From assembly GCA_018262235.1 (NCBI GenBank), contig JAGTRY010000026.1:1-39713 (forward strand): a stretch of DNA of 39,713 nucleotides, in the 5' to 3' direction. The notes beneath the pieces were generated by a model. It was not told where the DNA came from and searched no databases. It saw only the letters and a program-made list of their open reading frames with translations. The stretch's first letter is position 1. Each line of letters begins with the position of its first letter. The translations under genes and the position numbers were made by a program. Shown in pieces: positions 20,622-39,713 of this stretch. The DNA is from Pseudomonadota bacterium (GTDB lineage: Bacteria > Pseudomonadota > Gammaproteobacteria > Burkholderiales > Rhodocyclaceae).

Positions 20622-22244
20622 TCAGCAGCGGAAGCGCGCTACACTGCGTGACAGGGTCTGAGCGAGCCCTTCGAGCTCGGTAGCCGCTCCGCGTCCGCGT
20701 TCTATCGTCTCCGAATTGCGTTCGCTGGCACTGGCAATCCGCTCCACACTCATGGCGATCTCGCTGGAGGCGCTGGATTGCTGGCGCGCCACCTCGCTGA
20801 GTTCGCGCAGGTTTTCGAGCGACTGATGGGCGCCCTCATCCAGGGTCTTGAGTGGCAAACGCAGGCTTTCCACCTCTGCCACGCCACTTTCCACATGCGC
20901 CTTGGCCACGTTCATTTCCTTGGCGGCCTCCCGCGCCTGCTGCTGGACCTGCTCGATCATCCGCTGGATCTGTCTGGTCGCCGTGCTGGTCTTCTCGGCC
21001 AGCTTGCGTACCTCGTCAGCCACCACCGCGAAACCTCGGCCCTGCTCGCCGGCACGCGCCGCCTCGATGGCCGCGTTGAGCGCCAGCAGATTGGTCTGAT
21101 CCGCGATCTCATGGATGACAGAAGCAAACCCGCTGATTTCCTCGGCGCTCCCCACCAGTACGGCCATGGAAGCCGACGTTCCTTCCACGGTTCCCATGAT
21201 CTTGCGAACTTCATCCGCCGCATGCAGCACCATGTCGCGACCTTGCGTTGCCGTTTGCGAAGTCTCGTTCGCCACTTTCACCACGGCCTCCGTTTGCTGG
21301 GCCGCGTTCCAGACACTCTCGGTGAGATTCTCGACCATCGCCGCGATCCCGCTCAGGGATTCGCTTTGCTGGCCGGCACTATCGGCCACCCCGCCGACGA
21401 CTTCGCTCATGGCGCTGGCCGCCCCTTCCACATTGTGCGAGCTGCTCAGCACTTCACTGATCACGTTCCGCAGGCTCTGCTGCATCTGCGCCAGGGCACG
21501 CAGCAGTTGCCCCACTTCATCCTGCGACTGCGGAACGATGCTCACGCGCAAATCACCATCGGCAACCAGATCGGCAGCCCGCACCGCCTCGGCCATGGGC
21601 CTGACGATGCTGCGCGCCATCACGAAACTGGTGACCAGCCCCAGACATAATGATACGAGCAAGGTCACCACGCTCGCCGCCAGCACCCGCCGCCAGCTGG
21701 CGATAGCATTGTCATAACTCGAACGGGCTTCGACCGTCTGTACTCCGATGACCTGACGGGTCGCCTGCGACACGGTTTTGAAATCGTCATCAGCCGTCTG
21801 CATGCCGGAACGCCCCATGGCCGGGTCGACCGAAGCCATATCCAGGGCGGTATTCACGGCTTGCCGGTACTTCTGCAGTCCGGCACCGATCTGCTTGAAC
21901 GAGGTTTTCTCCGCATCGTCACTGGTCACGCTCATGTCAGCCATCAGTTCCACGACCTGCTTTTCCAGTTTTCCCAGTGCCGTGTTGATGCCGGCCACGC
22001 GGGCCGCCACCTTGTCGGTCTCCATTCCGTCAAGCTGGGTAAACAGGCTGTAGGCATCCGCGTGAACGGCCAGCAGATCGGACTCCAGGGTCTTGATCAG
22101 CACTACATGATCGAAACGCTCTTCGAACAGATCCTGCAGGGCGCCGCCCACGGAATTCAGCCCGGCATAGGCGATCCCGCCCATGACCAGCATCAGCAGC
22201 ATGCACAGCAACGGCGCAGCAAGCATCCGGTGGATAATCCGCAT
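20622..22244 (-). CDS. Methyl-accepting chemotaxis protein
   Basis: 540-residue transmembrane chemoreceptor. I chose the start MRIIHRML (AGGGG 8 nt upstream) rather than the ATG at 22298. TM1 is about residues 9-29, a periplasmic four-helix-type sensor domain spans about 30-185, TM2 about 187-210, HAMP about 211-265 and the signalling hairpin about 270-540. The tip contains the near-invariant block [22 protein letters not shown] and the [16 protein letters not shown] stretch that binds CheA and CheW. No CheR-tethering pentapeptide is present; the protein ends in RSVARFRC. A gene for a secreted Cache-domain protein lies 120 nt upstream on the same strand. The ligand is unknown. Confidence 0.92.
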
Positions 22245-22364
22245 GACCGATCCCCTGTCCTGCGCTGCACGGAAATCTCCGCGCAGCGTCATCCGCATTC
22301 AGAACCCCGAAGTGACCAGGGCGCAAACCCGTAGCGCAACCTGTCCGCTCACGGGCACCCGGCC

Positions 22365-22817
22365 TCAGCGTTTGTAGACCCCGGCACAGACCACCACGTC
22401 GCCGGTTTTTTCGCAGTACGCCTGCTTGGGTAGCACCTTCTTCGAGATCGGATCGGTGAATTTGTAGTCCTGCCAGAACTTGCCCTTGCTCGCAGCAAGC
22501 TCCATGCGCTCCTTGTAGAAAGGCTTGCCATCGGGATCCTTGAAATCGATCAGATCCTTGTCGACCATCTTGGGGTTCTGCCCGTGGGCCAGGACCTTGC
22601 CATGCAGGTCCATCACCGTCGGGTACAGATCACGACTGATCCACTTGGCATCCTTCCCGGTAATCTCGCTCAGCGTCTGGGCGCGATTTGCCTTCAGGGC
22701 GGCAACCACCTTGCCGACCATGGCCTCGGCATCCTTCGGCGAAGCAAATTCCTCGGCAGCAAGGACCGGACCGGACAGGGCAATCAGGGAAATCATCAGC
22801 AGGCTTGCAGTTTTCAT
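22365..22817 (-). CDS. Secreted single-Cache-domain protein
   Basis: 150 residues starting at the second of two adjacent ATGs (22817), with GGAGG just upstream. A cleavable signal peptide (MKTASLLMISLIALSGPVLA) precedes a domain with the pattern of a free-standing Cache sensor: an N-terminal helix (DAEAMVGKVVAALK), a strand-turn with VMDLHGKVLAHG, then KDLIDFKDPDGKPFYKERME, and a final strand pair holding YCEKTGDVVVCAGVYK. The two cysteines could form a disulfide. Such domains usually sit inside chemoreceptors and kinases and bind small molecules. As a free periplasmic protein it could present a ligand to the MCP encoded directly downstream; that is inference. Confidence 0.82.
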   Translation of the reverse strand: MKTASLLMISLIALSGPVLAAEEFASPKDAEAMVGKVVAALKANRAQTLSEITGKDAKWISRDLYPTVMDLHGKVLAHGQNPKMVDKDLIDFKDPDGKPFYKERMELAASKGKFWQDYKFTDPISKKVLPKQAYCEKTGDVVVCAGVYKR

Positions 22818-22908
22818 CATTCCTCCGGAAAAAGACCCGTGCGGCGTAATCCGCCAACCCGGCACAAGGGCAAAAGCGGAGATCGAAAAATCCCCCGCTG
22901 CATGGAGG

Positions 22909-22936
22909 ATTACGGCGGTCTTTCCCGACAACTTGA
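22909..22936 (-). promoter_or_regulatory. Possible weak sigma-28-like promoter for the Cache-MCP pair
   Basis: On the minus strand TCAAGTT begins at 22936, and after 16 nt from TCAA there is GCCGTAAT (22916-22909). The spacing is one nt longer than ideal and the -10 matches GCCGATAA at only five of eight positions. Its interest comes from the much better plus-strand sigma-28 match about 65-90 nt away. The region between 22818 and 23000 holds no gene. Confidence 0.25.
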
Positions 22937-23000
22937 GCGCCACAGAGCCAGGAAAGACGGGGTTTTCCGCACCCTGCCCTTTCAGACATCACCCCCTGGA

Positions 23001-23027
23001 TCAAGTCAGTTATCCGAGTGCCGATAA
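23001..23027 (+). promoter_or_regulatory. Sigma-28 (FliA) type flagellar promoter upstream of the signalling operon
   Basis: TCAA (23001-23004, extended TCAAGTCA) and a perfect GCCGATAA (23020-23027) are separated by exactly 15 nt. This is the arrangement of flagellar class III promoters (TAAA-N15-GCCGATAA). It lies about 90 nt before the first gene of the six-gene operon, on the same strand. This suggests the operon is expressed with late flagellar and chemotaxis genes. Confidence 0.62.
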
Positions 23028-23114
23028 GCCTATGGAGGACCTCCCATCAACCCATTCCGCGCAAGCGCCAGACAAACCGTTTCACGTGCATGGATATCCG
23101 CTCCAGAGGGATTC

Positions 23115-23933
23115 ATGGAAACCATTCAAGGACCAGGCAACGCCAGTATCGAGGTGGCACCCAACACCGTGCTGCTGGTCGATGACGAGGAAAACATCTT
23201 GGCCTCCCTGCGCCGTCTCCTGCGCAAGGATGGCTATCGCATCCTGTGCGCGACCAGCGGCCAGGCCGGGCTTGATTTGCTGGCCAGTGAAAAGGTTGAC
23301 GTGATCATCTCGGACCAACGCATGCCACACATGGTGGGCACGGTCTTCCTGCAAAAAGCGCAGGAACTGAGTCCCAACAGCGTACGCATGATCCTCTCCG
23401 GCTACACCGATCTGGAAAGCGTCACCGCTGCCATCAACCAGGGGGCGGTCTACAAGTTCCTGACCAAACCCTGGGACGACGAGATCCTGCGTCTGTCGAT
23501 CAAGGAAGCCCTGCGCCACAAATGGGTGCGCGACGAAAACCGCATGCTCCAGGCCATGCTGGTGGAAGTGAACGAAGAACTGGCCCACGCCAACCAGCTG
23601 CTGGCCGAGCGCGTCGATTTCGCCCAGGAAGCCTTGCACAACTTCCAGGAAATCGTGCATGACCTGCCGGTCGCCCTGCTCGGCATCGATGCGTCAGGCT
23701 TGCTGATGTTCGCCAACAAGGCGGCCTTCGATCTGCTCGACAAGCCCGTGGCTTTCGGTTCAGCGGCAGCCCCCCAGTTGCCGGATGGCATCTCCGTCCT
23801 GTTGGACAACCCGGACATTGGCGGCGCTGGCGTCATCTTCAACGGACAGCCCCACACCGCAAAGATCCAGCCCCTTTCCCACAAGGCCCGCGGCCACATC
23901 ATTTCCATCATTCCCGACGCCCCAACGCCATGA
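23115..23933 (+). CDS. Response regulator: REC plus coiled coil plus PAS-like domain
   Basis: 272 residues; AGAGGG lies 4 nt before the ATG. Residues about 17-135 are a receiver domain (LLVDDEEN acidic pair, phospho-acceptor Asp67 in VIISDQRMP, conserved Lys in FLTKPWDDE). Residues about 138-175 form a helix rich in heptad-like positions, and about 176-270 look like a divergent PAS domain (FQEIVHDLPVALLGIDASGLLMFANKAAFDLL). No DNA-binding or enzymatic output is visible, so it probably acts through protein contact, perhaps modulating the kinase encoded next. Its stop overlaps the start of that kinase gene by 4 nt (ATGA). It is the first gene after the sigma-28-like promoter. Confidence 0.87.
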   Translation: METIQGPGNASIEVAPNTVLLVDDEENILASLRRLLRKDGYRILCATSGQAGLDLLASEKVDVIISDQRMPHMVGTVFLQKAQELSPNSVRMILSGYTDLESVTAAINQGAVYKFLTKPWDDEILRLSIKEALRHKWVRDENRMLQAMLVEVNEELAHANQLLAERVDFAQEALHNFQEIVHDLPVALLGIDASGLLMFANKAAFDLLDKPVAFGSAAAPQLPDGISVLLDNPDIGGAGVIFNGQPHTAKIQPLSHKARGHIISIIPDAPTP

Positions 23934-25756
23934 TGAAAACGCTTGATCCGCTGGGCTGGCAAAATTTCCTGCTGCTCGATCTGGTCGAGGTCGGCATCCT
24001 CGTCATCGATGCCGAGTCCATCCTCTTTGCCAACACCACCTTCTCGCGGGTCGTGGGGCTGACCCTGCGCGAACTTCAAACCAAAAGCCTGCGCGAGCTT
24101 GGTGGAGACGCCTGGGTCGATTTCACGCTCGGCCAGAGCTGGGCCGACGCCCTGCCCTGGCCCATGGCAGACGGCTCGGACCGCTGGTTCGAAGTCAGTC
24201 TGCAACCCACCGACTTCGAAGACCGTGTCGTCCATATCGCCACCTGTACCGATGTCACCTCGCGCATGCGCGCCGAGGGCGCGGAAGCTTCGATGCTGCA
24301 GATGCTCACCGAGATCATCGAAGGCTATCCGGTCGGCACCTTCGTACTCGACAAGGATCATCAACTCACCCACTGGAACCGTGCTTGCGAAGTCCTTACC
24401 GGGCTTTCCGCAGGTGATGCCATCGGCAGCGACGACCCCGGCAATGCCTTCGGCATCAAAAAGGGAGAATTGCTGGCTGATCGGGTCATGAGCCCGGTCG
24501 ACGAAACCGCGCTGCTCCGGTTCTATGATGGCCGTCTGTGGAAGTCCCCCGCGGCAGAAGGCGCTTACGAAGCTGAACTGCATTTCGACAAGCTCGGCGG
24601 CATCCCGGATCGCTGGATGCATGTGGCCGCCACGCCGCTCCGGGATGCCAGTGGCGCCATCATCGGCGCCATCGAAACCCTGATCGACATCACCGCCCGC
24701 AAGAATGCCGAAGAAGAACTGCGCCATGCCCATCAGGCCGCCGAACAGCTGATTACCGAACGCACCCGGGAACTGCGCGAAGCCAAGGCCGAGCTGGAAG
24801 ATGACATCGCCCGGCGCCAGCTGATCGAGCAGGAAATGCAGCAACACCTGATGGAAGTCACCGCCCTCAACGCGCAACTGCATGAAACGCAGGAACGCCT
24901 CGTGCAGAGCCAGCAGCAGTTGGTGCAGAACGAAAAACTCGCCTCGATCGGCCAGCTCGCCGCAGGCGTGGCACACGAGATCAACAACCCCATCGGCTAT
25001 GTGTTCTCAAACTTTGGCACCTTGCAGACCTATCTGGCCGACTTGCTCAGCCTCATCGACGCTTACGTTCAGGCAGAACCGGCAATCAGCGCGGAAAACC
25101 TGCGCACCCAGCTGGGCCAGCAACGCAAGAAGATGGACCTGGACTACCTCAAGAACGACCTGATGGATCTGATGCGCGAATCCCGCGAAGGCATCGAACG
25201 GGTACGCAAGATCGTGCAGGATCTGAAGGATTTCTCCCACGTCGATGCGAGTGCCGACTGGCAGTGGTCCGACCTCCAGCGCGGGCTGGAATCCACGCTG
25301 AACGTGGTCAACAACGAAATCAAGTATAAAGCCGATGTCATACGAGAGTTCGGCACCATCCCGCAGGTGCAGTGTCTGCCCTCCCAGCTCAACCAGGTTT
25401 TCATGAACCTGCTGGTCAACGCTGCCCACGCCATCAAGTCCGAAGAGCGCGGCACGATCCGGGTCAGCACCGGCACCAGCGACCAGAGCGTGTGGGTCGC
25501 CATCCAGGACAATGGTTGCGGAATGTCGCCGGAAATCATGAGCCGGATCTTCGACCCTTTCTTCACCACCAAGCCGGTAGGCAAAGGGACCGGGCTGGGA
25601 CTATCGCTCTCCTACGGCATCGTGCAGAAGCATCACGGCAAGATCGAAGTCTGCTCGGAGCCTGGTGAAGGCACAACCTTCAGGGTCACCCTGCCCATCA
25701 GCCAGCCCGAGGACGAGGCCAGTCCGGCCCAGCACACCGACAAGGCGGAAACATGA
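23930..25756 (+). CDS. Soluble PAS-PAS sensor histidine kinase
   Basis: 608 residues without membrane helices, so cytoplasmic. Two PAS domains (about residues 12-120 and 125-265, the second ending with the IDITARKNAEEEL linker) are followed by a coiled coil (about 265-335). The phospho-acceptor His349 lies in GVAHEINNPIGYV. The ATP-binding domain shows the N box (NQVFMNLLVNAAHAI), G1 (QDNGCGM), F box (IFDPFFTTK) and G2 (GKGTGLGLSLSYGI). The stretch between the His motif and the second dimerisation helix (REGIERVRKIVQDLKDFS) is unusually long, as in the second kinase of the operon. It overlaps both neighbouring response-regulator genes by 4 nt, so it likely phosphorylates them. Confidence 0.92.
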   Translation: MMKTLDPLGWQNFLLLDLVEVGILVIDAESILFANTTFSRVVGLTLRELQTKSLRELGGDAWVDFTLGQSWADALPWPMADGSDRWFEVSLQPTDFEDRVVHIATCTDVTSRMRAEGAEASMLQMLTEIIEGYPVGTFVLDKDHQLTHWNRACEVLTGLSAGDAIGSDDPGNAFGIKKGELLADRVMSPVDETALLRFYDGRLWKSPAAEGAYEAELHFDKLGGIPDRWMHVAATPLRDASGAIIGAIETLIDITARKNAEEELRHAHQAAEQLITERTRELREAKAELEDDIARRQLIEQEMQQHLMEVTALNAQLHETQERLVQSQQQLVQNEKLASIGQLAAGVAHEINNPIGYVFSNFGTLQTYLADLLSLIDAYVQAEPAISAENLRTQLGQQRKKMDLDYLKNDLMDLMRESREGIERVRKIVQDLKDFSHVDASADWQWSDLQRGLESTLNVVNNEIKYKADVIREFGTIPQVQCLPSQLNQVFMNLLVNAAHAIKSEERGTIRVSTGTSDQSVWVAIQDNGCGMSPEIMSRIFDPFFTTKPVGKGTGLGLSLSYGIVQKHHGKIEVCSEPGEGTTFRVTLPISQPEDEASPAQHTDKAET

Positions 25757-27084
25757 GCGACAGCCTGAATCCTTCGCAAGCCCTCTGGCCCGCCGGCTTC
25801 AGTTCGGCACCGATCATCCTGCTCGTGGATGACGAACCCAACGTCCTCAGCTCGCTACGCCGCCTGCTGCGCCCCTGCGGCTATACAGTGCTCACCGCCG
25901 GAAGCGGTGCAGAAGCGCTGGATACCCTGACGACCCAGGCCGTCGATCTCATCGTTTCCGACATGCGCATGCCCGGCATGAGTGGTGATCAGCTGCTTGC
26001 CCAGGTCCGCAACCGCTGGCCCGACACCATGCGCCTGCTGCTGACAGGGTATGCCGAAGTCTCCTCGGCCATCTCGGCCATCAATGAAGGCGGCATCTAT
26101 CGCTACATTTCCAAGCCCTGGGATGACGAAGAACTCATCCGGATCCTGCATCAAGGTCTGGAACTATGCGGCCTGCAACGTGAAAAGGCCCGCCTGGAAG
26201 CCCTGACCCTGTCCCAGAACGAAGCCCTGCGCGAACTCAATATCACCCTGGAAGACAAGGTCCGCCAGCGCACCGAGGAATTGCAGATCGCCAACCAGGA
26301 AATCCTGCTGGCAATGGAGAAGCTCAAGAAAACCTTCTTCACCTCGGTGCAGGTGCTCTCCAACCTTATCGAAATGCGCGCCCCGACCCTCGCCGGCCAC
26401 AGCCGGCGTGTGGCCGATATCGCACGCCGGATTGCCGAGAAGATGGGCGTCGGGACCGAATTGCAGCACGAAATCCTGCTCGCCGGCCTGCTTCATGACA
26501 TCGGCAAGATCGGATATCCGGATGCACTGTTCGGCAAGCCGCTCAACAAGATGACCGGGGAAGAGGCCGGTCTGGCCCGCAAGCACCCGATCAACGGCGC
26601 CGCCGCCCTGATGTCGATGCCGGATCTGCGCGGGGTGGCCGAACTCATCCGCAGTCATCACGAACGCTGGGATGGGCAGGGTTTTCCGGACGCCCTGGCC
26701 GGTGACAAGATTCCGCTGGGCGCCAGGATCCTGGCGCTGGCCAATGATTATGACGGCGCCCAGATCGGCACGATCACGACCAAGCAGATGAGTGTGGATG
26801 AAGCCAAGGCTTATGTGCTCGAAGGCCGCAAGTTCCGCTACGACCCGGATGTGGCCGATGCCTTCGGTCAATTGGTCGGGCGGATGGCACGCCAGCCGGT
26901 GCTGGAACGCCGCCTGAGCGGAGCGGAACTCGAAGCCGGAATGGTCCTGTCGCGGGATCTGTACAGCCCGGACGGCATGTTGTTGCTGGCTACGGAATAC
27001 GTTCTGGACGATCTGCTGATCCACCAGATCCGCGAATATGAATCCTCTTTCGGCAAACACCTTGTTGTCTGCGTGCACGCCTGA
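25753..27084 (+). CDS. RpfG-like response regulator: REC plus HD-GYP c-di-GMP phosphodiesterase
   Basis: 443 residues. The receiver domain (about 20-140) has LLVDDEPN, phospho-acceptor Asp70 in LIVSDMRMP and the Lys in [10 protein letters not shown] coiled coil (about 145-195) leads to an HD-GYP domain (about 195-385). Metal-binding residues are visible: AGHSRRV, His248-Asp249 in [15 protein letters not shown] and the [14 protein letters not shown] block, where the eponymous GYP is GFP, a change seen in active members. The enzyme should hydrolyse c-di-GMP when phosphorylated. A C-terminal tail (about 385-443) of unknown function is typical of this architecture. The start overlaps the kinase stop by 4 nt. 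Confidence 0.92.
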
Positions 27085-27091
27085 TCAATCC

Positions 27092-29605
27092 ATGACCACA
27101 AAATCCACACTCAACCTCCTGTTCATCGATGCCGACCCCTCGCTCTACGAGGCGGTAACCACCGTCCTGCGCGCCGCAGGGCAGGCATTCAAGCTCACCA
27201 CCCTGAGCAGCGCCGAAGCACTCGACACAGCGCTCGACGACATGACACACGATTGCGTGGTGTGTGCGCTGCGTGCGACGGGAGCCTTTCCGAACACGCC
27301 GTCCCTGCCTGGCCTGGGCATCCTGCAGCGCGTACGCGGGCACAGTAACAGCCTTCCACTGATCATGCTGTGCGCCCCGGAGGATGAAGAAACCCATGCC
27401 TGGCAAGCCATCTGGGACGGCGCCGACGATTATCTGGTCTGCACCGCATTGCAACGTCTGCCCCTGGCAATCCAGACGGCGGTCCGTCACCGTCATTTGT
27501 TCGCGTTGCGCCAGACCGAAGAAGAGGAATACAAGCTTGCCCTGGCCGTGCTGCGTGGCAGCAGCGATGGTTTCTGCGTCACCGACACGAACGCGAGAAT
27601 CCTGTTCGTCAACGACAATTTCACCCAGATCACGGGCTACACGCTGGACGAAATCGAGGGCCAGAATCCGCGCTTCCTGCAATCCGGCAGACAGAGCAGT
27701 ATTTTCTACCGCAACATGTGGGATTCCCTGATCAAGCACGGGAGCTGGCGCGGCAACGTCATCAACCGGCGCAAGGACGGCAGCACCTATACCGAATGGC
27801 TGCGCATCACCGCCGTCCACGCCAAGAACGGCCAGGTAACCCACTACGTCGGCCAATTTGGCTACGTCTCCGAACAGAAACACCTGATCGAGCGCATCAA
27901 CCAGCTCACCCAGTTCGACCCGCTGACCGGCCTGCCCAATCGCAACCTGTTCCTGGACCGGCTCGACCAGGCCTTGATCAACGCGCAACGCAGCAACGCC
28001 AGTGTCGGGGTCATGCGGATCAATCTGGACCGCTTCCGCCAGATCAACGACACCCTGGGGCAATCTGCCGGCGACCATGTACTGATCGAAATGGCACAAC
28101 GCTTCACCGGCCAGGTTCGGCAAGGCGATACGGTGGCGCGCCTGTCCGGCAACGAATTCTGCTTTCTGCTCAACAACCTCAATGCCGCGGAAGACACCCA
28201 GGGGCTGGCCACACGCCTGCAAGCCCTGATCGCCCAGCCTATCGAACACGCCGCCCACTCGCTGGTCCTCACGGCCAGCCTGGGCATCAGCGTCTCGCCA
28301 CGCGACGGAGAAGACAGCGAAGCCCTGCTCAAGGCTGCCGATGCGGCACTGATCCGGGCCAAACAGGAAGGCGGCAACGGTTTCAGTTTCTACTCGTCTG
28401 ACATGGATGCCGATGCGCAACGACGCCGGCTGATCGAGACCGAGCTGCGCCAGGCGCTTGACCGCGAGGAACTGAGCGTGGTGTATCAGGCCCAGAACAG
28501 TCTGGACAGCGGCAACATCCTCGGCACCGAAGCCTTGCTGCGCTGGTCGAATGCCACGCTCGGCCAGGTCAGCCCGGCAGAATTCATTCCGGTCGCCGAG
28601 GAAACCGGCCTGATCATTCCGATCGGCAACTGGGTGCTCCAGCAAGCCTGTGCGCAGAACAAAGCCTGGCAGGATCACGGCCTGTCCCGCATCCGGGTAG
28701 CCGTCAATCTCTCGGCACGCCAGTTCCGTGTCGCAAGCCTGGTGGACGATATCGCCCAGATCCTGGCCGAAACCGGTCTGGCCCCGGAATATCTGGAACT
28801 GGAGGTCACCGAATCCTCGCTGATCCATGATATCGACAACGCGATCGCCACCTGCCGCAAACTCAAGGCGATGGGCATCAAGCTCTCGCTCGATGATTTC
28901 GGCACCGGTTATTCCTCGCTGGCCTACGTGTCGCGCTTCCCCTTCGACAAACTCAAGATCGACCAGAGCTTTGTGCGCGACATCACCCTGAACCCGGCCA
29001 ACGCCGCAATTGCCACCGCCGCCATCGCAATCGCACGCGGCCTGAACCTCTCCGTACTGGCCGAAGGCGTGGAAACCGAAGCGCAAGCCCTGTTCCTGCG
29101 CAATCGACATTGCGATGCCATCCAGGGCTACCTGTTCGCGCGCCCACTCCCGCCCAAGGACCTCACCACCCTGCTGGCCAACAACACGCGCTTGCTGCTC
29201 GGAGTCCCGGCGCCCTTGAGCAATCAGACCCTGCTCATCGTTGACGATGAAGTCGCCATCCTCAATGCGATGTGCCGTCTGTTCCGCCACGAAAATTACC
29301 TCGTCCTCACCGCGCAGAACGCCGAGGAAGCCTTTGAACTGCTGGCGCGTCACCCGATACAGGTCATCATCTCCGACCATCGCATGCCGAGCATGTCCGG
29401 CACCGAATTCTTCTCGCGTGTCCGGCAACTCTATCCGGAAACGATCCGCATCATTCTTTCGGGCTATACCGAACTCGCGTCGGTAATGGACGCCATCAAT
29501 CACGGCGCGGTCTACAAATTCCTGACCAAACCCTGGGATGACGATCAGCTACGCGAACAGATCCGGGAAGCCTTTCGCACCACGACGCAACGCGAAGCCG
29601 GTTAA
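27092..29605 (+). CDS. Pseudo-REC-PAS-GGDEF-EAL-REC protein, probable c-di-GMP phosphodiesterase
   Basis: 837 residues from MTTKSTLN, 7 nt after the preceding stop; an in-frame ATG at 27038 lies inside the preceding gene. The N-terminal receiver-like domain (about 1-130) starts LLFIDADPS but has no Asp at the acceptor site ([10 protein letters not shown]), so it is probably not phosphorylated. A PAS domain follows (about 145-265). The GGDEF domain (about 275-430) has SGNEF at 352-356, which predicts loss of cyclase activity. The EAL domain (about 440-700) keeps its catalytic set: Glu480 in [47 protein letters not shown] and [10 protein letters not shown]-terminal receiver (about 710-830) has Asp762 in VIISDHRMP and closely resembles the receiver of the first gene. 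Confidence 0.92.
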
Positions 29606-29613
29606 GGCTGGCC

Positions 29614-32600
29614 ATGGAACGCTATACCGCCCCGATCCGCACGGCCATTGCCAGGCTGAACAACTGGAAGCTGGTTGTGCTGGTGCTGATCGCGGCAAGT
29701 GCCATCACCGCTCTGTTTGCGCAATACGTCTACAGCGATGCACGTCGCGGTGCGCGGATGAATCTGGCCATCATCGCGAAACTCAAGGCCAACGAAGTCG
29801 AGCGCTGGCTCACCGAGAAACGCAGTGGTCTGGTCCAGCCACCTTCGGGTTATCTTGCCCTCGCTCTCGCCGAATGGCAGAAGGGCAAACCCGGGCCAGA
29901 CGCAAATGCAGCGCTGGTCGCCCACCTCAACTTCTATCTGCAACGCTATCAGGACGCCAGCGGAATCGCCGTGTATGACGCGCAGGGCCGCTTTGTGATG
30001 TGTACCGAGGCGACGCATACCGCCATGCCGATGCAGATCGAGACGCGTGCCATTCTGGATGGGCCGGCACATCTGATCGATTTCCATGCCGACCCGGCCG
30101 GGCAGCCACACCTGGCTTTCTCCACCCCACTGCTCCTGCATCATGCCCATGGCAACCAGCTCATCGGCTTTCTCCTGCTGGAAATCGATCCTGCCCGTTA
30201 CCTGTACCCTTTCATCCAGAACTGGCCGGGCAATAGCACCTCGGCGGAAACCCTGCTTTACCGGCGCATCGGCAACGAGGTGGAGTTTCTCAATCCGCTC
30301 CGCCACGACCCCGCACCGCCCCTCACCAAACGCGTCTCACTGAGCAATCAAGGCCTGCTGGCGAGCAGGCTGGTGAACGGTCCGGCGCAGGCAGCGGAAG
30401 GCATGGACTATCGCGGCGTAAAAGTCTTCGGTGCAAGCCATCTGATCAAGAACACACCCTGGCAGGTGCTTACCAAGATGGACCGCAGCGAGATCTATGC
30501 CGATGCGTTCAACCAGACCATCCGCTTCGGCATATTCGCCCTGCTGCTCGCCATGGGTCTGACCTTGCTGCTGCGTCAGACCCATGCGCGTGCACGCAGT
30601 CTGGCCAGCCTGCGCCAACAGACGGCAGACATGGCCTTGTTGCGCGCCTTCATCGACTGTGTGCCGGAAACCTTGTTCATGGCACACCGGGATGGACAGA
30701 TCCGCATCATCAACACCACCGGCGCGGCCCGGCTCGGCCATACGCCTGAACAGATCGTCGGTGCCAATATATGGGCGCTGCTCCCTCCAGGCGTTTCCCA
30801 CGCCCGCAAGGCGACGGCAGAAGAAGCCTGTCGCAGCAACCAGACCCGCAGCCTGAGCGATCAACGCAATGGCATCGAATACCTGAGCATGTTCTATCCC
30901 TTGGGCGATGGCGAACATGTTGTCCTCATCGCAACCGATGTCACCGCGCGCAATGCAGACGCCAAAGCGCGTCGCGAAGCCATGCAGACCTTGCAGGGCT
31001 TCATCGATCACATGCCCGGCTTCGCCTATGTAAAAAATCATGAAGCTCGCATTTTGCTGGCCAATCAGCGTTTCCAGGATCAGCTCGGCATCAATCCTGT
31101 CAGCATGATCGGCAAGCGGCCGAACGAGATCTTCCCCGACGCAATCGGTCAGAAAATCCTCGCGGAGGATTTGCGTGTGCTCGCCCAGGGCACCCCCGAA
31201 GTGATCGAAGAGGAAATCTCCGGGCGCTTCTATGAATCCACCAAATTCCTGATCCCCGCCGGCGAAGGCAATGTCAATCTGGGCGGCATCACGCTGGATG
31301 TCACGGCCCGCCACCAGGCTGAAGAAGCCTTGCGCAGGAGTGAAGAACGCCTGCGCTTGCTGACGGACAACCTGCCCGACAGTTTCCTCTACCAGATCGC
31401 CCAGGAAGCAGACGGTACCCGTCGATTCCTTTTCGTCAGCTCGGGGGTTGAACGGGTGCTCGGCGTCCTGCCCGAAGAAGCCGTCAAGGACAACAAGGCC
31501 ATCCTGGACCGCATCGATCCGGATCAGCTTGACGAACTCCGGGTCGCACAGGAACAGGCCGTCAACGGCAATTTCAGCCTGGACCTCCACATCCGCCGAG
31601 CCGATGGCCGCTGGGGCTGGCTCAACATGCGCTCCCATCTGCGTGCGCGCCAGACCGAGCAGGAACCCCGCATCTGGGATGGTGTCGCCAGCGATGTCAC
31701 CGCGCTGCGCCATAGCGAACAATTGCTGGCCCTGCAGGCACGCCGTGCCGGAGTCTTGCTGGCGCTACCGGCTCAAGCCGAACAGATGGATGAAGCGGCG
31801 TTCATGTCGCATGCCCAGGACCTGGCCGAACAACTCACCGACAGCCAGATCGCCTTCATCCATTTCGTCAAGGAAGACCAGGAAAACATCGAACTCGTGG
31901 CCTGGTCACACAACACCATCGCGCATTACTGCAAAGCTGCTTTCGAGAAGCACTACCCGCTCAGCAAGGCAGGCATCTGGGCGGATTCGGCACGCCTCAA
32001 ACAAGCCGTCATCGTCAATGATTACGCACACCATGCCGGGCAGCACGGTCTGCCCGCCGGGCACTCACCGCTGCACCGTCTGATCAGCGTACCGGTCATG
32101 GAAGGCGGGCTGGTCCGCATGATAGCCGGGGTCGGCAACAAAACCGGGGACTACACCGATCTGGATGCCGAGACGGTCCAGCTCATCGCCAATGAAACCT
32201 GGCGCATCGTGCGCAAACGCCGCGCAGAACTTGCCTTGCAACAAACCGTACAGGTTGTCGAAGCCAGCCCGGCGATCTGCTTCCGCTGGTATGCCAGGGA
32301 TGACCGGCCGGTTGCATTCGTGTCGGACAACGTCCGCAACTGGGGTTACGAACCGCAGGACCTGATCGCCGGCCATCCTCCCTACACCACGCTGGTCCAC
32401 CCGGACGATCTGGCCCGCGTCATTGCCGAAGTCAGCACGCACAGGACACTCAAACACACCCAGTACAAGCAGGAATACCGCCTGCTCAAAGCAGATGGCG
32501 ACGTCATCTGGGTATCGGACCTGACGACCGTCCGTCACGATGACAAAGGCAACCCAAAATACTTTGACGGCATCGTCACCGACATCAGCGAACGCAAGCT

Positions 32601-33504
32601 CTATGAACTCAGACTGGCAGAAAATCTGGCTACCCAGCAGGCTCTGAACAAGAAACTGGAGGACGCCCACAACCAGCTGCTGCAAGCCGAGAAACTCTCC
32701 GCCATTGGCCAGCTTGCCGCCGGCGTGGCACACGAGATCAACAACCCGATCGGTTTCGTGCACTCCAATCTGGGGACCCTCAATGAATATGTCGCCACCC
32801 TGATCAACCTGTGCGACACCTATACCAACCTGTTTGAAGAGACCCAGCCCGACGACACCCCTCTGCTTTTCGAGATTCGCCGGATCAAGCAGGAGCAGGA
32901 TTACAACTACCTGCGCAGCGACATTTTCCCTTTGCTGGAAGAATCCCGCGAAGGCCTGATCCGTGTCCGCAAGATCGTGCAGGATCTGCGCGACTTCTCA
33001 CGTTCGGGCCCCCAGGAATGGGGAGCTGCCGATCTGCACAAAGGGCTGGACTCCACGCTCAACATCGTTGCCAACGAACTCAAGTATAAATGCCATATCC
33101 ATAAAGAATACGGTAACATCCCCGAAGTGGTTTGCGTCATCTCGCAGATCAATCAGGTATTCATGAACCTGCTGGTCAACGCAGCCCAGTCCATCAAGAC
33201 CCAAGGTCTCATCACCCTGCGCAGCGGCATGGAAGGCACCGATCACGTGTGGGTCAGCATTTCCGACTCTGGTGAAGGCATCCCGCCCGAAAACCTCAAC
33301 CACATCTTCGAGCCCTTCTTCACCACCAAGCCCGTAGGGGTCGGTACCGGACTGGGGCTTTCGCTGGTCTTCGGCATCATCACCCGCCATCATGGGCGCA
33401 TCGATGTCAGCAGCGAACCTGGCAAAGGCAGCACGTTCCGGATCACGCTCCCCGTCACCCAGGCACCTGAAATCAACACTCAACCCGTACAGGAGGCACC
33501 ATGA
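29614..33504 (+). CDS. Membrane hybrid-sensor-type histidine kinase with dCache-like, multiple PAS and GAF domains
   Basis: 1,296 residues; AAGG lies 6 nt before the ATG and the gene begins 8 nt after the previous stop. TM1 is about residues 20-40 and TM2 about 305-324, enclosing a periplasmic double-Cache-like sensor. The cytoplasmic part has PAS domains at about 345-450, 455-570 and 575-705, a GAF-like domain (about 710-870) and a further PAS domain (about 880-995). A coiled coil leads to the phospho-acceptor His1040 in GVAHEINNPIGFV and an ATPase domain (NQVFMNLLVNAAQSI, FEPFFTTKPV, GTGLGLSLVFGI). There is no attached receiver. The kinase core is close to that of the soluble kinase at 23930-25756. 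It overlaps the next receiver gene by 4 nt. It integrates a periplasmic signal with several cytoplasmic ones; the ligands are unknown. Confidence 0.92.
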   Translation: MERYTAPIRTAIARLNNWKLVVLVLIAASAITALFAQYVYSDARRGARMNLAIIAKLKANEVERWLTEKRSGLVQPPSGYLALALAEWQKGKPGPDANAALVAHLNFYLQRYQDASGIAVYDAQGRFVMCTEATHTAMPMQIETRAILDGPAHLIDFHADPAGQPHLAFSTPLLLHHAHGNQLIGFLLLEIDPARYLYPFIQNWPGNSTSAETLLYRRIGNEVEFLNPLRHDPAPPLTKRVSLSNQGLLASRLVNGPAQAAEGMDYRGVKVFGASHLIKNTPWQVLTKMDRSEIYADAFNQTIRFGIFALLLAMGLTLLLRQTHARARSLASLRQQTADMALLRAFIDCVPETLFMAHRDGQIRIINTTGAARLGHTPEQIVGANIWALLPPGVSHARKATAEEACRSNQTRSLSDQRNGIEYLSMFYPLGDGEHVVLIATDVTARNADAKARREAMQTLQGFIDHMPGFAYVKNHEARILLANQRFQDQLGINPVSMIGKRPNEIFPDAIGQKILAEDLRVLAQGTPEVIEEEISGRFYESTKFLIPAGEGNVNLGGITLDVTARHQAEEALRRSEERLRLLTDNLPDSFLYQIAQEADGTRRFLFVSSGVERVLGVLPEEAVKDNKAILDRIDPDQLDELRVAQEQAVNGNFSLDLHIRRADGRWGWLNMRSHLRARQTEQEPRIWDGVASDVTALRHSEQLLALQARRAGVLLALPAQAEQMDEAAFMSHAQDLAEQLTDSQIAFIHFVKEDQENIELVAWSHNTIAHYCKAAFEKHYPLSKAGIWADSARLKQAVIVNDYAHHAGQHGLPAGHSPLHRLISVPVMEGGLVRMIAGVGNKTGDYTDLDAETVQLIANETWRIVRKRRAELALQQTVQVVEASPAICFRWYARDDRPVAFVSDNVRNWGYEPQDLIAGHPPYTTLVHPDDLARVIAEVSTHRTLKHTQYKQEYRLLKADGDVIWVSDLTTVRHDDKGNPKYFDGIVTDISERKLYELRLAENLATQQALNKKLEDAHNQLLQAEKLSAIGQLAAGVAHEINNPIGFVHSNLGTLNEYVATLINLCDTYTNLFEETQPDDTPLLFEIRRIKQEQDYNYLRSDIFPLLEESREGLIRVRKIVQDLRDFSRSGPQEWGAADLHKGLDSTLNIVANELKYKCHIHKEYGNIPEVVCVISQINQVFMNLLVNAAQSIKTQGLITLRSGMEGTDHVWVSISDSGEGIPPENLNHIFEPFFTTKPVGVGTGLGLSLVFGIITRHHGRIDVSSEPGKGSTFRITLPVTQAPEINTQPVQEAP

Positions 33505-34076
33505 GACTGATCCTGATTCTTGACGACGAACCCGCCATCCTCCAGTCCCTGCGCCGCCTGCTGCGGATTGCGCCTTGCAGCTACGGCAACCAGTCTTTCA
33601 ATCTGGAAATCGAGATTTTCAGTTCGGCCCGTGTCGCACTTGAACGCGCCAGCCATACCGCCTTCGACCTGTTCCTGACCGACTACCGCATGCCGGAAAT
33701 GGACGGAGTCAGCTTCCTGAAAGCCGTCAAGAAAATCCAGCCCGAAGCATGCCGTCTGATCCTCTCCGGCTACGCCGACCTGAACGCCCTGACGCGCGCA
33801 GTCAATGAAGTCGGCATAGACCGTTTCATCGGCAAGCCCTGGAACGATTACGAGCTGGTCTCCGCAATCGCCCAGGCCCTGGCGCATCGCGAGCTGCTGC
33901 TGGAAAACCGCCGGCTGGCGGACCTGATGCGTCTGGACTGTGGTGACATCGCGCCGGCCGATATCGAAGCGCAGATGCTGGAGAGCATCGAACCCGGCAT
34001 TACCAAGGTCAACTGGGGCCCGGATGGTTCCGTGATACTCGACCCGGACTTGCAGCCGGAAACGGACAAGCCCTGA
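33501..34076 (+). CDS. Stand-alone response regulator receiver protein
   Basis: 191 residues. The receiver (about 1-130) shows ILDDEPA, phospho-acceptor Asp61 in LFLTDYRMP and Lys in FIGKPWNDYEL. It carries a roughly 10-residue insertion after the first helix (SYGNQSFNLE). The remaining 60 residues form a helix (LLLENRRLADLMRL) and a short tail with no known output domain. Its coding sequence overlaps the kinase stop by 4 nt, so the two are a translationally coupled pair. It could be a phosphate carrier in a relay or a protein-contact regulator. It is the last gene of the operon and converges with cheB. Confidence 0.88.
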   Translation: MRLILILDDEPAILQSLRRLLRIAPCSYGNQSFNLEIEIFSSARVALERASHTAFDLFLTDYRMPEMDGVSFLKAVKKIQPEACRLILSGYADLNALTRAVNEVGIDRFIGKPWNDYELVSAIAQALAHRELLLENRRLADLMRLDCGDIAPADIEAQMLESIEPGITKVNWGPDGSVILDPDLQPETDKP

Positions 34077-34078
34077 AA

Positions 34079-34103
34079 CCCCGGTTTCACGCACAGACCG
34101 GGG
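34079..34103 (+). terminator. Weak hairpin at the convergence of the signalling operon and cheB
   Basis: A 7-bp stem (CCCCGGT at 34079-34085, ACCGGGG at 34097-34103) with an 11-nt loop starts 2 nt after the stop codon of the last operon gene. There is no T-tract, so it may be only a weak or factor-assisted terminator. It lies in the 48-nt gap between the two convergent gene sets. Confidence 0.35.
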
Positions 34104-34124
34104 CAGACGAAGTACAACTCCAGC

Positions 34125-35195
34125 TCAGCGCCCGAAACGGACGATCAGCTCCGGAATCTCGTCCAGCCCCACAACCGTCTGAACCCCACCCAGCTTGATG
34201 GCTTCCTTCGGCATGCCGAACACCACGCAGCTCTCCTCGTCCTGTGCCACGGTATGCGCGCCAGCATCAAGCATTTCCTTCAGGCCACGCGCGCCGTCAT
34301 CACCCATCCCTGTCATGATGATGCCCAATGCATTCGCCCCCGCCGAATGTGCCGCAGAGCGGAACAGGACATCCACTGAAGGACGGTGACGATTGACTAG
34401 CGGGCCATCCGTGACTTCGACGTAGTATTGCGCGCCACTGCGTTTGAGCAGCATGTGGCGCCCGCCCGGCGCAATCAGCGCCCGTCCCGGTGCGACCCGG
34501 TCATTGTTCTCGGCTTCCTTGACCCGGATCCGGCTCAGGCCATTGAGTCGCTCGGAAAAAGCCGCCGTGAATTTTTCCGGCATGTGCTGAACAATGACAA
34601 TCCCCGGCGCCGTCACCGGCAAGGTCGTCAGCACCGCCTCAAGCGCCTGGGTGCCCCCCGTCGAGGTTCCCATCACCACCACGCGTTCGGTCGTTTGGGT
34701 CATTGCCCGCGAAGCTTGCGGCAGGATGACATCCGCCGTGTTCTTCGCCTGGACATGCAAGGGCGGCGCAACGCGCTGCGTCAGCCGTTTGAGGTTGACG
34801 CCCGCGGCATTCTTGACGGCTTCGACCAGATCGTCCGACGAATCACTCAGGAATTGCTTCAGCCCGAGTTTGGGCTTGGTGATGATGGCCACCGCCCCTG
34901 CCGCCAGTGCTTCAATCGTCGTCTGCGCGCCTTTTTCCGTCAGCGTCGAACAGATGATCACCGGGGTTGGACGTTCGGACATCAGCTTGCGCAGGAAGGT
35001 GATGCCATCCATCCGAGGCATCTCCACATCGAGCACGATCACATCCGGCCACTGCTGCTTCATGCGCTCGATGGCAATCAAGGGGTCCGCCGCTGCAGCG
35101 ATCACCTCGATATGCGGATCGGCATTCAACAGAGCTGTCACGACTTGCCGCACAACAGCAGAATCATCCACCACCAAGACCTTGATCGTTTTCAT
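34125..35195 (-). CDS. cheB: Chemotaxis protein-glutamate methylesterase CheB
   Basis: 356 residues. It removes methyl groups from, and deamidates, chemoreceptors, and is activated by phosphorylation from CheA. The receiver (about 1-120) has VVDDSAVVR and phospho-acceptor Asp56 in [13 protein letters not shown]. The catalytic domain (about 165-356) has Ser178 in GTSTGG, His204 in VQHMP and Asp300 in [10 protein letters not shown]. The linker between them (about 120-165) is typical in length. AAAGGGG lies upstream of the ATG at 35195. The start overlaps the cheD stop by 4 nt, and it is the last gene of the minus-strand chemotaxis cluster. Confidence 0.97.
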
Positions 35196-35743
35196 TCCAG
35201 CCCCTTTTTCTGTGGCGTTTTCTTGATACTGTCCGGCGGATTGATCTGGCGTGACCAGACGTGTCCGTTGCTGATATCAAATATGATGTTTCGATGCCCG
35301 ACACCAAACAGGCTTTCCGATACCACCGGAATACCACACGCGGTCAACAGCAAGCGTGCCGTCAAGCCGTTCTTAGTGCCAACATTGGTCTGATCCAGTG
35401 GCGCGTGATGCGGAAACATGTTTCCGCCTCCGAAGATTTTGGCCTGGCATTCCGTCTGCCGCACGCCGCGCATGGCAAGCGCCTGCAGCATCAACCACAA
35501 GGCTTCATCACCATAACGACCATCCGGCGGTGAAGCCTTCGTCCGCCCGCGCGTAGGCAGCAGGAAATGCGACATCGCACCGACCCGCAACCGGGGATGC
35601 CAGATCGTGATCGACACACAGGAGCCGAGCAGCGTCCGGATCCGGTGCGTCGCGTCACCAACATAGAATTCTCCCGGTTGCAGGAATACTTCAACACGAT
35701 GCGGATGAGCGTCTTCCTTCATGACAATTTCACCCAGCATCAT
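35192..35743 (-). CDS. cheD: Chemoreceptor glutamine deamidase CheD
   Basis: 183 residues. CheD converts specific glutamines of chemoreceptors to glutamates and in some species partners with CheC. The catalytic Cys42 lies in LLGSCVSI and His59 in GAMSHFLLP; their 17-residue spacing matches the known CheD active site. The GGGNMF and VGTKNG blocks are also conserved. It overlaps cheR upstream and cheB downstream by 4 nt each, so the three adaptation enzymes are translationally coupled. No cheC is seen in the window. Confidence 0.96.
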
Positions 35744-36540
35744 GGTTTCCGGTAAACCGAAGGAATCACAGGTTTCAAGGCATCCGAAATCCCGTTCAGA
35801 CTCTCCGAATGCCCGATCAGGAAATGACCTCCCGGTTTCAACAGCGTGGCGATCCGCTCAACGATCTGCTGCTTCGTCTCCACGTTGAAATAGATCATCA
35901 CATTGCGCAAAAAGATGACATCGAACATGCCCAGTCTGGGCAAAGGCTGGTTCAGGTTGATCTGTTCGAATCTCACGCGCTGGCGTAGGCTTCGCTCGAC
36001 CAGCAAGGAACCCGCTTCACAGCCCACCCCGCGCAGACAATAGCGTTTGAGGTATTGCGATGGCGTCTGCCTGGCCCGCTCCATGGGGTAATAGCCGGAG
36101 CGCGCGCGCTGAAGGACGCGCGTACTGATATCGGACCCCAGGATTTCCCAGGCGCCATCCGGTCGGCAATCCGCCAGCACCATCGCGATGCTGTAAGGCT
36201 CCTCACCGGTTGAACACGCGGCACTCCAGACCCTGAAGGTCTGCGAGGAAGCCTGGGCACCGACGGCCAGTTTCCGCAACAACTCGAAATGCTGGGGTTC
36301 CCTGAAGAAGAAGGTTTCATTGGTCGTCAGAAGATCGACGGCCATCTGCACTTCTGCCGCGGCCGTGCCGCTTTGCAACAGCCGGAAATATTCGGCATAA
36401 CTCCCCAGCTTATGATGCGTCAGCCGCTTGCCAAGCCTGCCGCACACAAGCGGTTTCTTGGCCGGGGAAAGACTGATGCCTGCAGCCTCGTAGATGAACT
36501 GCTGAAATTGGGAAAACTCTCTGTCTGTAATCTGAATCAT
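35740..36540 (-). CDS. cheR: Chemotaxis protein methyltransferase CheR
   Basis: 266 residues. It methylates glutamates of chemoreceptors using S-adenosylmethionine. The N-terminal helical domain (about 1-85) ends with the family motif TTNETFFFREPQHFELL. The methyltransferase domain begins with FRVWSAACSTGEEPYSIAM, the SAM-binding loop, and includes FDVIFLRNVMIYF. The beta-subdomain between them, which binds receptor pentapeptides, is present by length. The ATG at 36540 has a moderate AGAG site. A 109-nt gap separates it from cheW, wider than the other gaps in the cluster, but no promoter is evident there. Confidence 0.97.
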   Translation of the reverse strand: MIQITDREFSQFQQFIYEAAGISLSPAKKPLVCGRLGKRLTHHKLGSYAEYFRLLQSGTAAAEVQMAVDLLTTNETFFFREPQHFELLRKLAVGAQASSQTFRVWSAACSTGEEPYSIAMVLADCRPDGAWEILGSDISTRVLQRARSGYYPMERARQTPSQYLKRYCLRGVGCEAGSLLVERSLRQRVRFEQINLNQPLPRLGMFDVIFLRNVMIYFNVETKQQIVERIATLLKPGGHFLIGHSESLNGISDALKPVIPSVYRKP

Positions 36541-36649
36541 GTTTGAATCGTCTCTGGGGGTAATACCAAAACATCCACCCTATGCGCTCTATGCATTATC
36601 TCTTTTATGGCAGGAACTCTACCGCGCGCATCATACGGAAAAATCATGG

Positions 36650-37204
36650 TCAGCCATCCAACGCTGAAAGCTGCACCACGGCTGCCATGGTCTCCCTCGA
36701 AAAAATTCGATCGGCATCCAGCACGATCACGAAGCGTCCCTTGATCTTGCCCATGCCCCGGATGAAATCCGCCCTGATCCGTGTCCCCAAGGAAGGCGGA
36801 GGCAGGATCTCGGACGCTGCAATTTCGATCACCTCATCAACAGCATCCACGATCATACCAACCACCTGCCGATCGCTCCCGGCTTCGATTTCCACGATCA
36901 CAATGCAGGTACGTTTGCCTACCGTGGCCGCCGGCCGGCCGAATCGGGCCTGCAGGTCCAGCACGGGCACTGCCGCGCCGCGCAGGTTGATCACCCCGCG
37001 CACGCTCTCGGGCATCATTGGCACTTCGGTAAGGCGGTGATACTCGATGATTTCCTTGACCGACAGAATGCCGATTGCGAACAACTCGCCAGACAGCGTA
37101 AACGTCAGAAACTGAGCGAGCGGCTGGTCTGTTTGCCCCGCAGCAACCCGCTCGCGCCCCGTTTCCGCAACCGGTGCAGGACGGGCTTCAGTGATGGCGG
37201 CCAT
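36650..37204 (-). CDS. cheW: Chemotaxis coupling protein CheW (copy 1)
   Basis: 184 residues; it links chemoreceptors to CheA. The CheW domain spans about residues 28-170, with FAIGILSVKEIIEYH, MPESVRGVINLRG, VPVLDLQARFG and GMIVDAVDEV. A 28-residue N-terminal extension rich in Ala, Pro and Glu precedes the domain. GGAG lies 8 nt before the ATG. It follows the MCP gene after 12 nt. Its sequence is very close to the other CheW encoded at the window edge, including identical DNA runs, so one probably arose from the other by duplication. Confidence 0.95.
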   Translation of the reverse strand: MAAITEARPAPVAETGRERVAAGQTDQPLAQFLTFTLSGELFAIGILSVKEIIEYHRLTEVPMMPESVRGVINLRGAAVPVLDLQARFGRPAATVGKRTCIVIVEIEAGSDRQVVGMIVDAVDEVIEIAASEILPPPSLGTRIRADFIRGMGKIKGRFVIVLDADRIFSRETMAAVVQLSALDG

Positions 37205-37216
37205 GGCCCGGCTCCT

Positions 37217-39151: not shown

Positions 39152-39271
39152 GATGCTCCCTTTACCAAACCATTAATCAGTAAACGCTGTATCCACCAAC
39201 CCCTGCCATAAAATCAAAAATGCCTTATGCATTCACAAAAACATACGTAAATTCAATCCACAGCCATCAGA

Positions 39272-39713
39272 TCACCCCGCCTCAACCAGCGCGTGGATAT
39301 CCGCATTCGCCCAGACACGATCCACATCCAGCAGGATCACGAAATTGCCCTTGACCTTGCCCATCCCGCTGATGAAATCCGCCCGGATCCGTGCCCCGAA
39401 GGCGGGCGGCGGCTCGATCTCCGCAGCATCGATATCCAGCACCTCATTGACCGCATCCACAATCATCCCGACCACCTGGCGCTCGCCATCGGATTCGACC
39501 TCCACGATCACGATGCAGGTGCGCTTGGTCACCGCTGAAGCGGGCCGGCCGAAGCGGGCCTGCAGGTCCATCACCGGCACCACCGCTCCACGCAGGTTGA
39601 TCACCCCGCGCACGCTCTCGGGCATCATCGGCACTTCGGTGATGTTGTGGTATTCGATGATTTCCTTGATCCCCAGGATGCCTATCGCGAACACTTCACC
39701 GGCGAGCATGAAA
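39272..39713 (-). CDS. cheW: Chemotaxis coupling protein CheW (copy 2, 5'-partial)
   Basis: 146-147 C-terminal residues; the frame continues past the right edge. Just before the in-window Met there is an in-frame Phe, matching the FTLSGELFAIGIL region of the first CheW, so the true start lies outside. The motifs FAIGILGIKEIIEYH, MPESVRGVINLRG, VPVMDLQARFG and GMIVDAVNEV are present. It ends 120 nt before the MCP start. The upstream genes beyond the window are probably cheA and cheY, judging from usual gene order. Confidence 0.94.
   Translation of the reverse strand, partial: FMLAGEVFAIGILGIKEIIEYHNITEVPMMPESVRGVINLRGAVVPVMDLQARFGRPASAVTKRTCIVIVEVESDGERQVVGMIVDAVNEVLDIDAAEIEPPPAFGARIRADFISGMGKVKGNFVILLDVDRVWANADIHALVEAG

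Follow-up and report, generated by a model that had tools for sequence, protein, structure and literature searches.

A compact set of signalling genes behind a flagellar-type promoter raises the question of whether it forms a relay devoted to motility or one branch of a wider regulatory network. We have addressed this for a six-gene locus in a stretch of 39,713 nucleotides (nt; contig JAGTRY010000026.1 of assembly GCA_018262235.1, hereafter the window) from a freshwater bacterium of the Rhodocyclaceae, whose genome is one of eight Uliginosibacterium genomes compared below. The genes, A to F, are co-directional on the plus strand at 23115–34076. The initial annotation had described them as a phosphorelay lowering cyclic di-GMP (c-di-GMP) as cells become motile, packed with overlaps or gaps of less than 10 nt and unlike any described system. 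The tight packing was confirmed, with 4 nt overlaps at A/B, B/C and E/F and gaps of 7 nt between C and D and 8 nt between D and E; position 23001, from which the locus had been counted, is the start of a promoter candidate, and A itself starts at 23115.

We estimate at roughly 0.55 the probability that the operon is a branched node, in which two kinases and four receivers control c-di-GMP phosphodiesterases from a FliA-type promoter, and not a phosphorelay. The latter term is not applicable because Pfam found neither a histidine phosphotransfer (HPt) domain at E ≤ 0.1 nor a hybrid kinase, that is, a kinase–receiver fusion, in A–F. The claim that no gene has a DNA-binding output held, since Pfam detected no such domain in A–F at E ≤ 0.1. 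The operon appears to be a variant of known branched kinase/c-di-GMP networks and a rearranged relative of a widespread gene cluster.

Kinases and receivers of the operon

Gene B (23930–25756) encodes a histidine kinase with Pfam architecture PAS-PAS-HATPase and a HEINN motif identified by alignment. Gene E (29614–33504) encodes a much larger kinase of 1296 residues, in which Pfam recognizes a Cache-like domain (below cut-off), PAS, GAF, PAS and HATPase, and whose N-terminal part contains hydrophobic membrane segments, read by eye in the translation. The kinase cores of B and E are 56% identical and share the same HEINN box. The best NCBIfam match of B is NF038348 (T2SS_HK), at 366.8 bits against a cut-off of 450, and E likewise matches the T2SS_HK model best, under its cut-off. 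The receivers also form a single family. C scores 551.2 bits against NF053512, the NosR-type response regulator model, passing the curated cut-off of 400, and the same model is the best receiver-domain match for A, for the C-terminus of D and for F. The receiver (REC) domains of these four proteins are 33–50% identical to one another as compared with 24–28% to the neighbouring CheB. Such likeness among kinases and among receivers is what would be expected if B and E serve the same receivers. The domain composition given in the initial annotation was borne out by Pfam, with the receiver count refined to four intact receivers (A, C, the C-terminus of D, and F) plus one pseudo-receiver.

Two of the receivers have no enzyme attached. 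The product of A (23115–23933) is a stand-alone REC–long coiled coil–PAS response regulator without enzymatic output: Pfam gives REC plus a weak PAS, and an AlphaFold2 model built from an alignment of relatives shows REC, a 61-residue helix and a PAS-like fold (predicted local distance difference test score, pLDDT, 88.6). In 13 other loci, GGDEF-EAL proteins end in a region homologous to A, a twice-fetched genome being counted once; nine of these alignments extend at least as far as A residue 265 and the other four end at 222–227. Because A is fused to GGDEF-EAL proteins in other bacteria, it probably acts on D.

F (33501–34076) is a protein of 191 residues in which a REC domain is followed by a helix and a conserved C-terminal tail. 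Its AlphaFold2 model shows REC, a long helix, a second helix and short tail strands (pLDDT 86.4, lower in the tail). The tail motif EPGITxVxWGxDGSV is largely conserved across 49 F proteins, with P165 and G176 invariant. Fold searches with the models of A and F returned mainly receiver domains among the best matches listed. F is probably a docking or targeting regulator and the usual companion of C.

These features suggest how the node might work. B (PAS-PAS, apparently cytosolic) and E (Cache-like/PAS/GAF/PAS, apparently membrane-anchored) would be different sensors acting in common on four NosR-type receivers, as kinases or as phosphatases; we infer such phosphotransfer pairs, and with them dimerization and the sign of the output. 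Two of the receivers would bear enzymes, C an HD-GYP domain and D an EAL domain with a degenerate GGDEF, and two would be enzyme-free, A as a REC–coil–PAS adaptor probably acting on D and F in docking or targeting. Transcription would start from the FliA-type promoter, so that production of the phosphodiesterases would coincide with late flagellar gene expression, and B and E would adjust how far c-di-GMP falls.

In two related loci, L051 and L053, C-F is preceded by several consecutive kinase genes, whose products resemble one another in their cores (in L051, 51–61% identical to B) and differ in their N-terminal parts. This arrangement suggests many-to-few signalling.

Gene order and the C–F core

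F was searched for in 101 genomes. Among the eight of Uliginosibacterium, that of the window (G000), U. aquaticum (G002) and Uliginosibacterium sp. 31-16 (G007) hold all six genes and two others (G003 and G004, the latter U. gangwonense) hold A-B-C-F, while F had no match at E ≤ 1e-10 in the remaining three (G001, G005 and G006). In G002 and G007 a DctP-like gene and a further kinase gene lie between B and C. The contiguous order A-B-C-D-E-F, the conservation of which had been taken up in the initial annotation, was seen only in the window, and this counts against the reading that we favour. The inserted DctP-family protein, of the tripartite ATP-independent periplasmic (TRAP) solute-binding type (L039:13023–13967, minus strand, and its equivalent in L040), is encoded next to the extra kinase and starts without an obvious signal peptide; it is possibly a cytosolic ligand sensor in the operon of these two congeners.

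For a wider view of gene order, the best 80 of 504 relatives were taken by similarity to F, some of them near relatives and not phylogenetically independent. Of these 80 loci, 79 were analysed, L125 having been dropped because its F tail was not recognized; L065–L067 gave way to L039–L041, longer stretches from the same genomes, and a locus that ended too soon on one side was omitted from the count concerned. C lies directly upstream of F in 63/76 loci. A kinase gene precedes this pair in 40/72, and D is found upstream on the same strand in 31/61. Seventeen loci have the order D-kinase-C-F, and their kinases are the best relatives of E outside the genus. The C-D-E-F order of the window is therefore most simply explained by a D-E block that moved between C and F.

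A small Arf/Ras-like GTPase gene comes after F in 33 of the 79 loci, and among the 63 loci in which the downstream sequence runs to 5 kb or more the GTPase occurs in 27, an ATPase with REC, MshEN and T2SSE domains in 26, and both in 26. The typical arrangement, as at L074:10574–14654 and equivalents, is F followed by the GTPase, a 400-residue kinase and the REC-MshEN-T2SSE ATPase. With an F orthologue defined by a best E ≤ 1e-40, the GTPase is present in 12 of the 23 genomes that have one as compared with 1 of the 78 others. No GTPase match was found in the eight Uliginosibacterium genomes, and both GTPase and ATPase are absent from the window. In a midpoint-rooted tree of 73 C sequences, the Uliginosibacterium clade (100/100) stands beside a Thauera sequence among GTPase-bearing lineages; loss of the GTPase in Uliginosibacterium is therefore likely. 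No description of the C-F-GTPase-kinase-REC-ATPase locus, or of its receiver-fused MshEN-bearing ATPase, was found in the literature searched. The locus, found in Rhodocyclales and Sulfuricellales, resembles the operon in its related D, E, C and F and in its receiver and kinase families. It differs in often having the order D-kinase-C-F, in adding the GTPase, a kinase and the ATPase, and in that no sigma-28 pattern was seen before it.

It is conceivable, at well below even odds, that the operon is a trimmed and rearranged hub for a surface machine, which originally acted on a pilus or secretion ATPase and acquired its connection to the flagellum through rewiring within Uliginosibacterium. The recurrence of GTPase and ATPase behind F and the place of the Uliginosibacterium C clade in the tree argue for this, as does the ability of MshEN to bind c-di-GMP, described in the available part of one report (PMC4624772). 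Nevertheless, without a GTPase match in the genus the GTPase does not act there; the sigma-28 pattern occurs once in GTPase-bearing loci, inside a kinase frame (L050); and the link is a genomic one, with 36 of the 63 loci having no GTPase after F. Equally tentative is the broader proposal that Beta- and Gammaproteobacteria have a hitherto undescribed multi-kinase hub with C-F as its conserved core, in which two c-di-GMP phosphodiesterases would be coupled through F to the GTPase and to a phosphorylatable, c-di-GMP-binding REC-MshEN ATPase of a pilus or secretion machine; in Uliginosibacterium the GTPase–ATPase arm would have been lost, A-B and the D-E block gained, and FliA control would have turned the hub into a flagellar controller.

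The branched, FliA-controlled node that we favour is supported by the distribution of FliA itself, which scores over its cut-off in 23/23 genomes with an F orthologue and in 60/78 others (p = 0.0105, not corrected for phylogeny). G013 falls just outside the threshold (4.9e-39) and has no FliA over cut-off; if it were counted, the figure would be 23/24. Its F homologue, in L032 (G013:C16), has two in-frame stops and lies near a REC-bearing frame of 466 residues. The expected co-occurrence with flagellar and chemotaxis loci was thus seen for FliA; as regards chemotaxis, CheB/CheD matches near the operon were confined to G007 among the stretches examined from four other Uliginosibacterium loci.

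Phosphodiesterase motifs and the promoter candidate

C (25753–27084) is a REC-HD-GYP protein of the NosR family. Across 83 distinct REC-HD-GYP proteins from the window and related loci, the receiver residues (DD, D, K) never vary, and the HD dyad retains its H in 77/83 and its D in 72/83. In the window all are kept: HD, HHE, the later Asp and DGxGFP are present, the HHExxDGxGYP motif having F in place of Y (43 of the 83 sequences have F and 37 have Y). D (27092–29605) is given by Pfam as PAS-GGDEF-EAL-REC, with an N-terminal pseudo-receiver visible in the alignment. Of 57 aligned D-type sequences, 54 have a letter at the site of the EAL glutamate and every one of these, the window included, has the glutamate; the conserved EAL motifs, the ExxET-type among them, are found in D and in nearly all of the relatives. 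At the third GGDEF position 27 of the 57 have D and 15 have N, and because the GGDEF of the window is degenerate (SGNEF), cyclase activity of D is unlikely. The three Rhodocyclales relatives shown (L070, L074 and L080) have an apparently intact N-terminal REC in D, and this domain is degenerate in the window, G007 and G002; the pseudo-receiver therefore probably decayed within Uliginosibacterium. C and D are predicted from their motifs to be two c-di-GMP phosphodiesterases of unrelated folds, so that the two enzymatic outputs named in the initial annotation stand as a prediction from intact EAL and HD-GYP motifs.

A precedent for this composition exists, contrary to the view that no similar system had been described. 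In Shewanella oneidensis, according to the available parts of two reports, HnoK and HnoS, which differ in their inputs, signal along branches to HnoB, HnoC and HnoD, EAL and HD-GYP regulators included (PMC6335343; PMC8846402). Two kinases with an EAL-type and an HD-GYP-type regulator are likewise found here, as B, E, D and C. The likeness is one of domain composition, and there are differences: HnoD is degenerate whereas C is intact; HnoC, a transcription factor, has no counterpart in A–F; and A and F have none in the Shewanella system as far as those parts describe it. C also recalls the NosP-NosK-NosR system, by its membership of the NosR family and by the proximity of a HEINN-type kinase to a REC-HD-GYP protein. 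Phosphotransfer from NosK to NosR has been demonstrated in Burkholderia pseudomallei, in which NosR carries HG-GTP (PMC12570481, in part); the present operon differs in having two kinases, three further receiver proteins and an intact HD. Sensing of nitric oxide through NosP or H-NOX within the locus was considered and rejected: Pfam detected no FIST/NosP domain in A–F, the two FIST genes of the genome being on contigs C165 and C151, and no H-NOX (HNOB) match was found in the genome, which is 97% complete. The FIST protein on C151 (L155) adjoins a histidine kinase of another type, a possible NosP pair.

These relatives raise a less favoured alternative, to which we give perhaps one chance in five, namely that C is mainly a phosphorylation-controlled inhibitor of D with no hydrolysis of its own, so that kinase activity would release D. 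HnoD suppresses HnoB by direct interaction, according to the part of the report available (PMC6335343). The Vibrio REC-HD-GYP protein VC1087, a possible member of the NosR family, does not have an intact HD and is inactive (PMC4212101, likewise in part). Because the related regulators NosR, HnoD and VC1087 are degenerate or inactive, C may have a regulatory role even though its motif is intact, and this tells against our reading of C as an enzyme. The retention of the HD dyad, HHE and later Asp in C, and of the dyad in most of its relatives, speaks the other way.

The FliA-dependent, branched node also requires a promoter. The candidate, TCAAGTCA-N11-GCCGATAA (23001–23027, plus strand), lies 114–88 nt upstream of A and agrees in 13/16 positions, with a perfect −10-type octamer, with the FliA consensus TAAAGTTT-N11-GCCGATAA printed for Salmonella in the available part of PMC4866697. 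The motif recurs 93 nt upstream of A in G007 and 102 nt upstream in G002, so the sigma-28-type promoter named in the initial annotation is upheld as a sequence recurrent in three species, the same three genomes being those that carry D and E. A set of 100 related loci (1.75 Mb, with some genomes fetched twice) was scanned on both strands for the pattern T[CA]AAG-N12-17-GCCGATA. It matched three times, twice immediately before A and once inside the kinase frame of L050, as against one match for its reversed control. Base composition gives a probability of about 1e-5 that TCAAG plus GCCGATAA would arise by chance within 170 nt when four spacings are allowed, and none of 10 Markov-shuffled windows had a 13/16 site. 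No sigma-70-like site was found in 22300–34300 (0, as against a mean of 2.8 in shuffles). FliA is encoded in the genome (TIGR02479, 284.7 bits, cut-off 189.6), and the strict pattern TCAAG-N13-16-GCCGATA has three matches there, one of them before motA-motB with the same 11 nt spacing.

Several observations pull in the opposite direction. The reversed control of the strict pattern has four matches in the genome; of the two other sites of at least 12/16 in the window, both on the minus strand within operon genes, one (25016, inside B) also reaches 13/16; the motif was not found in G004; the upstream region of G003 partly reads N; and no 12/16 site precedes the three flagellin genes of the genome. 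When the 130 nt preceding A were aligned with gaps, a motif-less locus aligned as well as the others, so that this comparison was uninformative. In view of the strict-pattern control and the other window sites, a single match is not beyond chance, and it is the recurrence that constitutes evidence. It is accordingly improbable that the site arose by chance and that another promoter drives the operon, since the motif stands 93–114 nt upstream of A in three species and occurs only once more in 1.75 Mb. A FliA promoter is credible on these sequence grounds. Least probable of all is that C acts on 3′3′-cyclic GMP-AMP (3′3′-cGAMP) or pGpG rather than c-di-GMP: the best match of its HD-GYP domain among solved structures is indeed a 3′3′-cGAMP-specific phosphodiesterase 3 (5z7c, E 7e-25), ahead of 4mcw (1.8e-20) and 4r8z (1.2e-19), but the ranking is by sequence only and the other enzyme domains of the operon are GGDEF-EAL.

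Surroundings and significance

A perfect 7 bp inverted repeat, CCCCGGT-N11-ACCGGGG, was read from the sequence at 34079–34103, between F and the convergent cheB. As a terminator it is weak, with no T-run on the plus side, and it was unlisted in a terminator scan with a loop limit of 8. The chemotaxis cluster reported behind the operon is present but convergent to it, encoding CheB, CheD, CheR, CheW, a methyl-accepting chemotaxis protein (MCP) and a second CheW on the minus strand (34125–39709). Upstream, divergent and also on the minus strand, are genes for a single-Cache (sCache) protein with a signal-peptide-like start (22365–22943) and for a four-helix-bundle MCP (20622–22298). A search of the 100 related loci with the sCache protein gave nothing at E ≤ 1e-5, and in G007 it is GlnE that occupies the upstream position; the pair was left out of the system. 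An anti-phage role was also set aside, a PADLOC scan of B, C and F having given only weak Cas3/HD-type matches, to C.

PdeH (YhjH) is a single enzyme, whereas here enzymes, two kinases and adaptor receivers lie in one operon. What they would have in common is a c-di-GMP phosphodiesterase expressed with flagellar genes, for YhjH is a phosphodiesterase and FliA affects yhjH, as stated in the available part of PMC4866697. The proposal that c-di-GMP is lowered with motility is thus reasonable in its direction. For the family as a whole, a role confined to the flagellum is not established, because among the 100 loci the sigma-28 pattern stands before the operon only in G007 and G002 and many relatives have the GTPase and ATPase.

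The locus brings together in one operon two kinases, two unrelated phosphodiesterase folds, two output-less adaptor receivers and a flagellar-type promoter. Because the genus has cultured species, the sharing of one c-di-GMP output by several sensors is directly testable. The comparative data add F as a marker protein, and a neighbourhood linking c-di-GMP turnover, a small GTPase and a receiver-fused MshEN ATPase; the C–F core with this recurrent GTPase/REC-ATPase neighbourhood is the most interesting by-product of the analysis.

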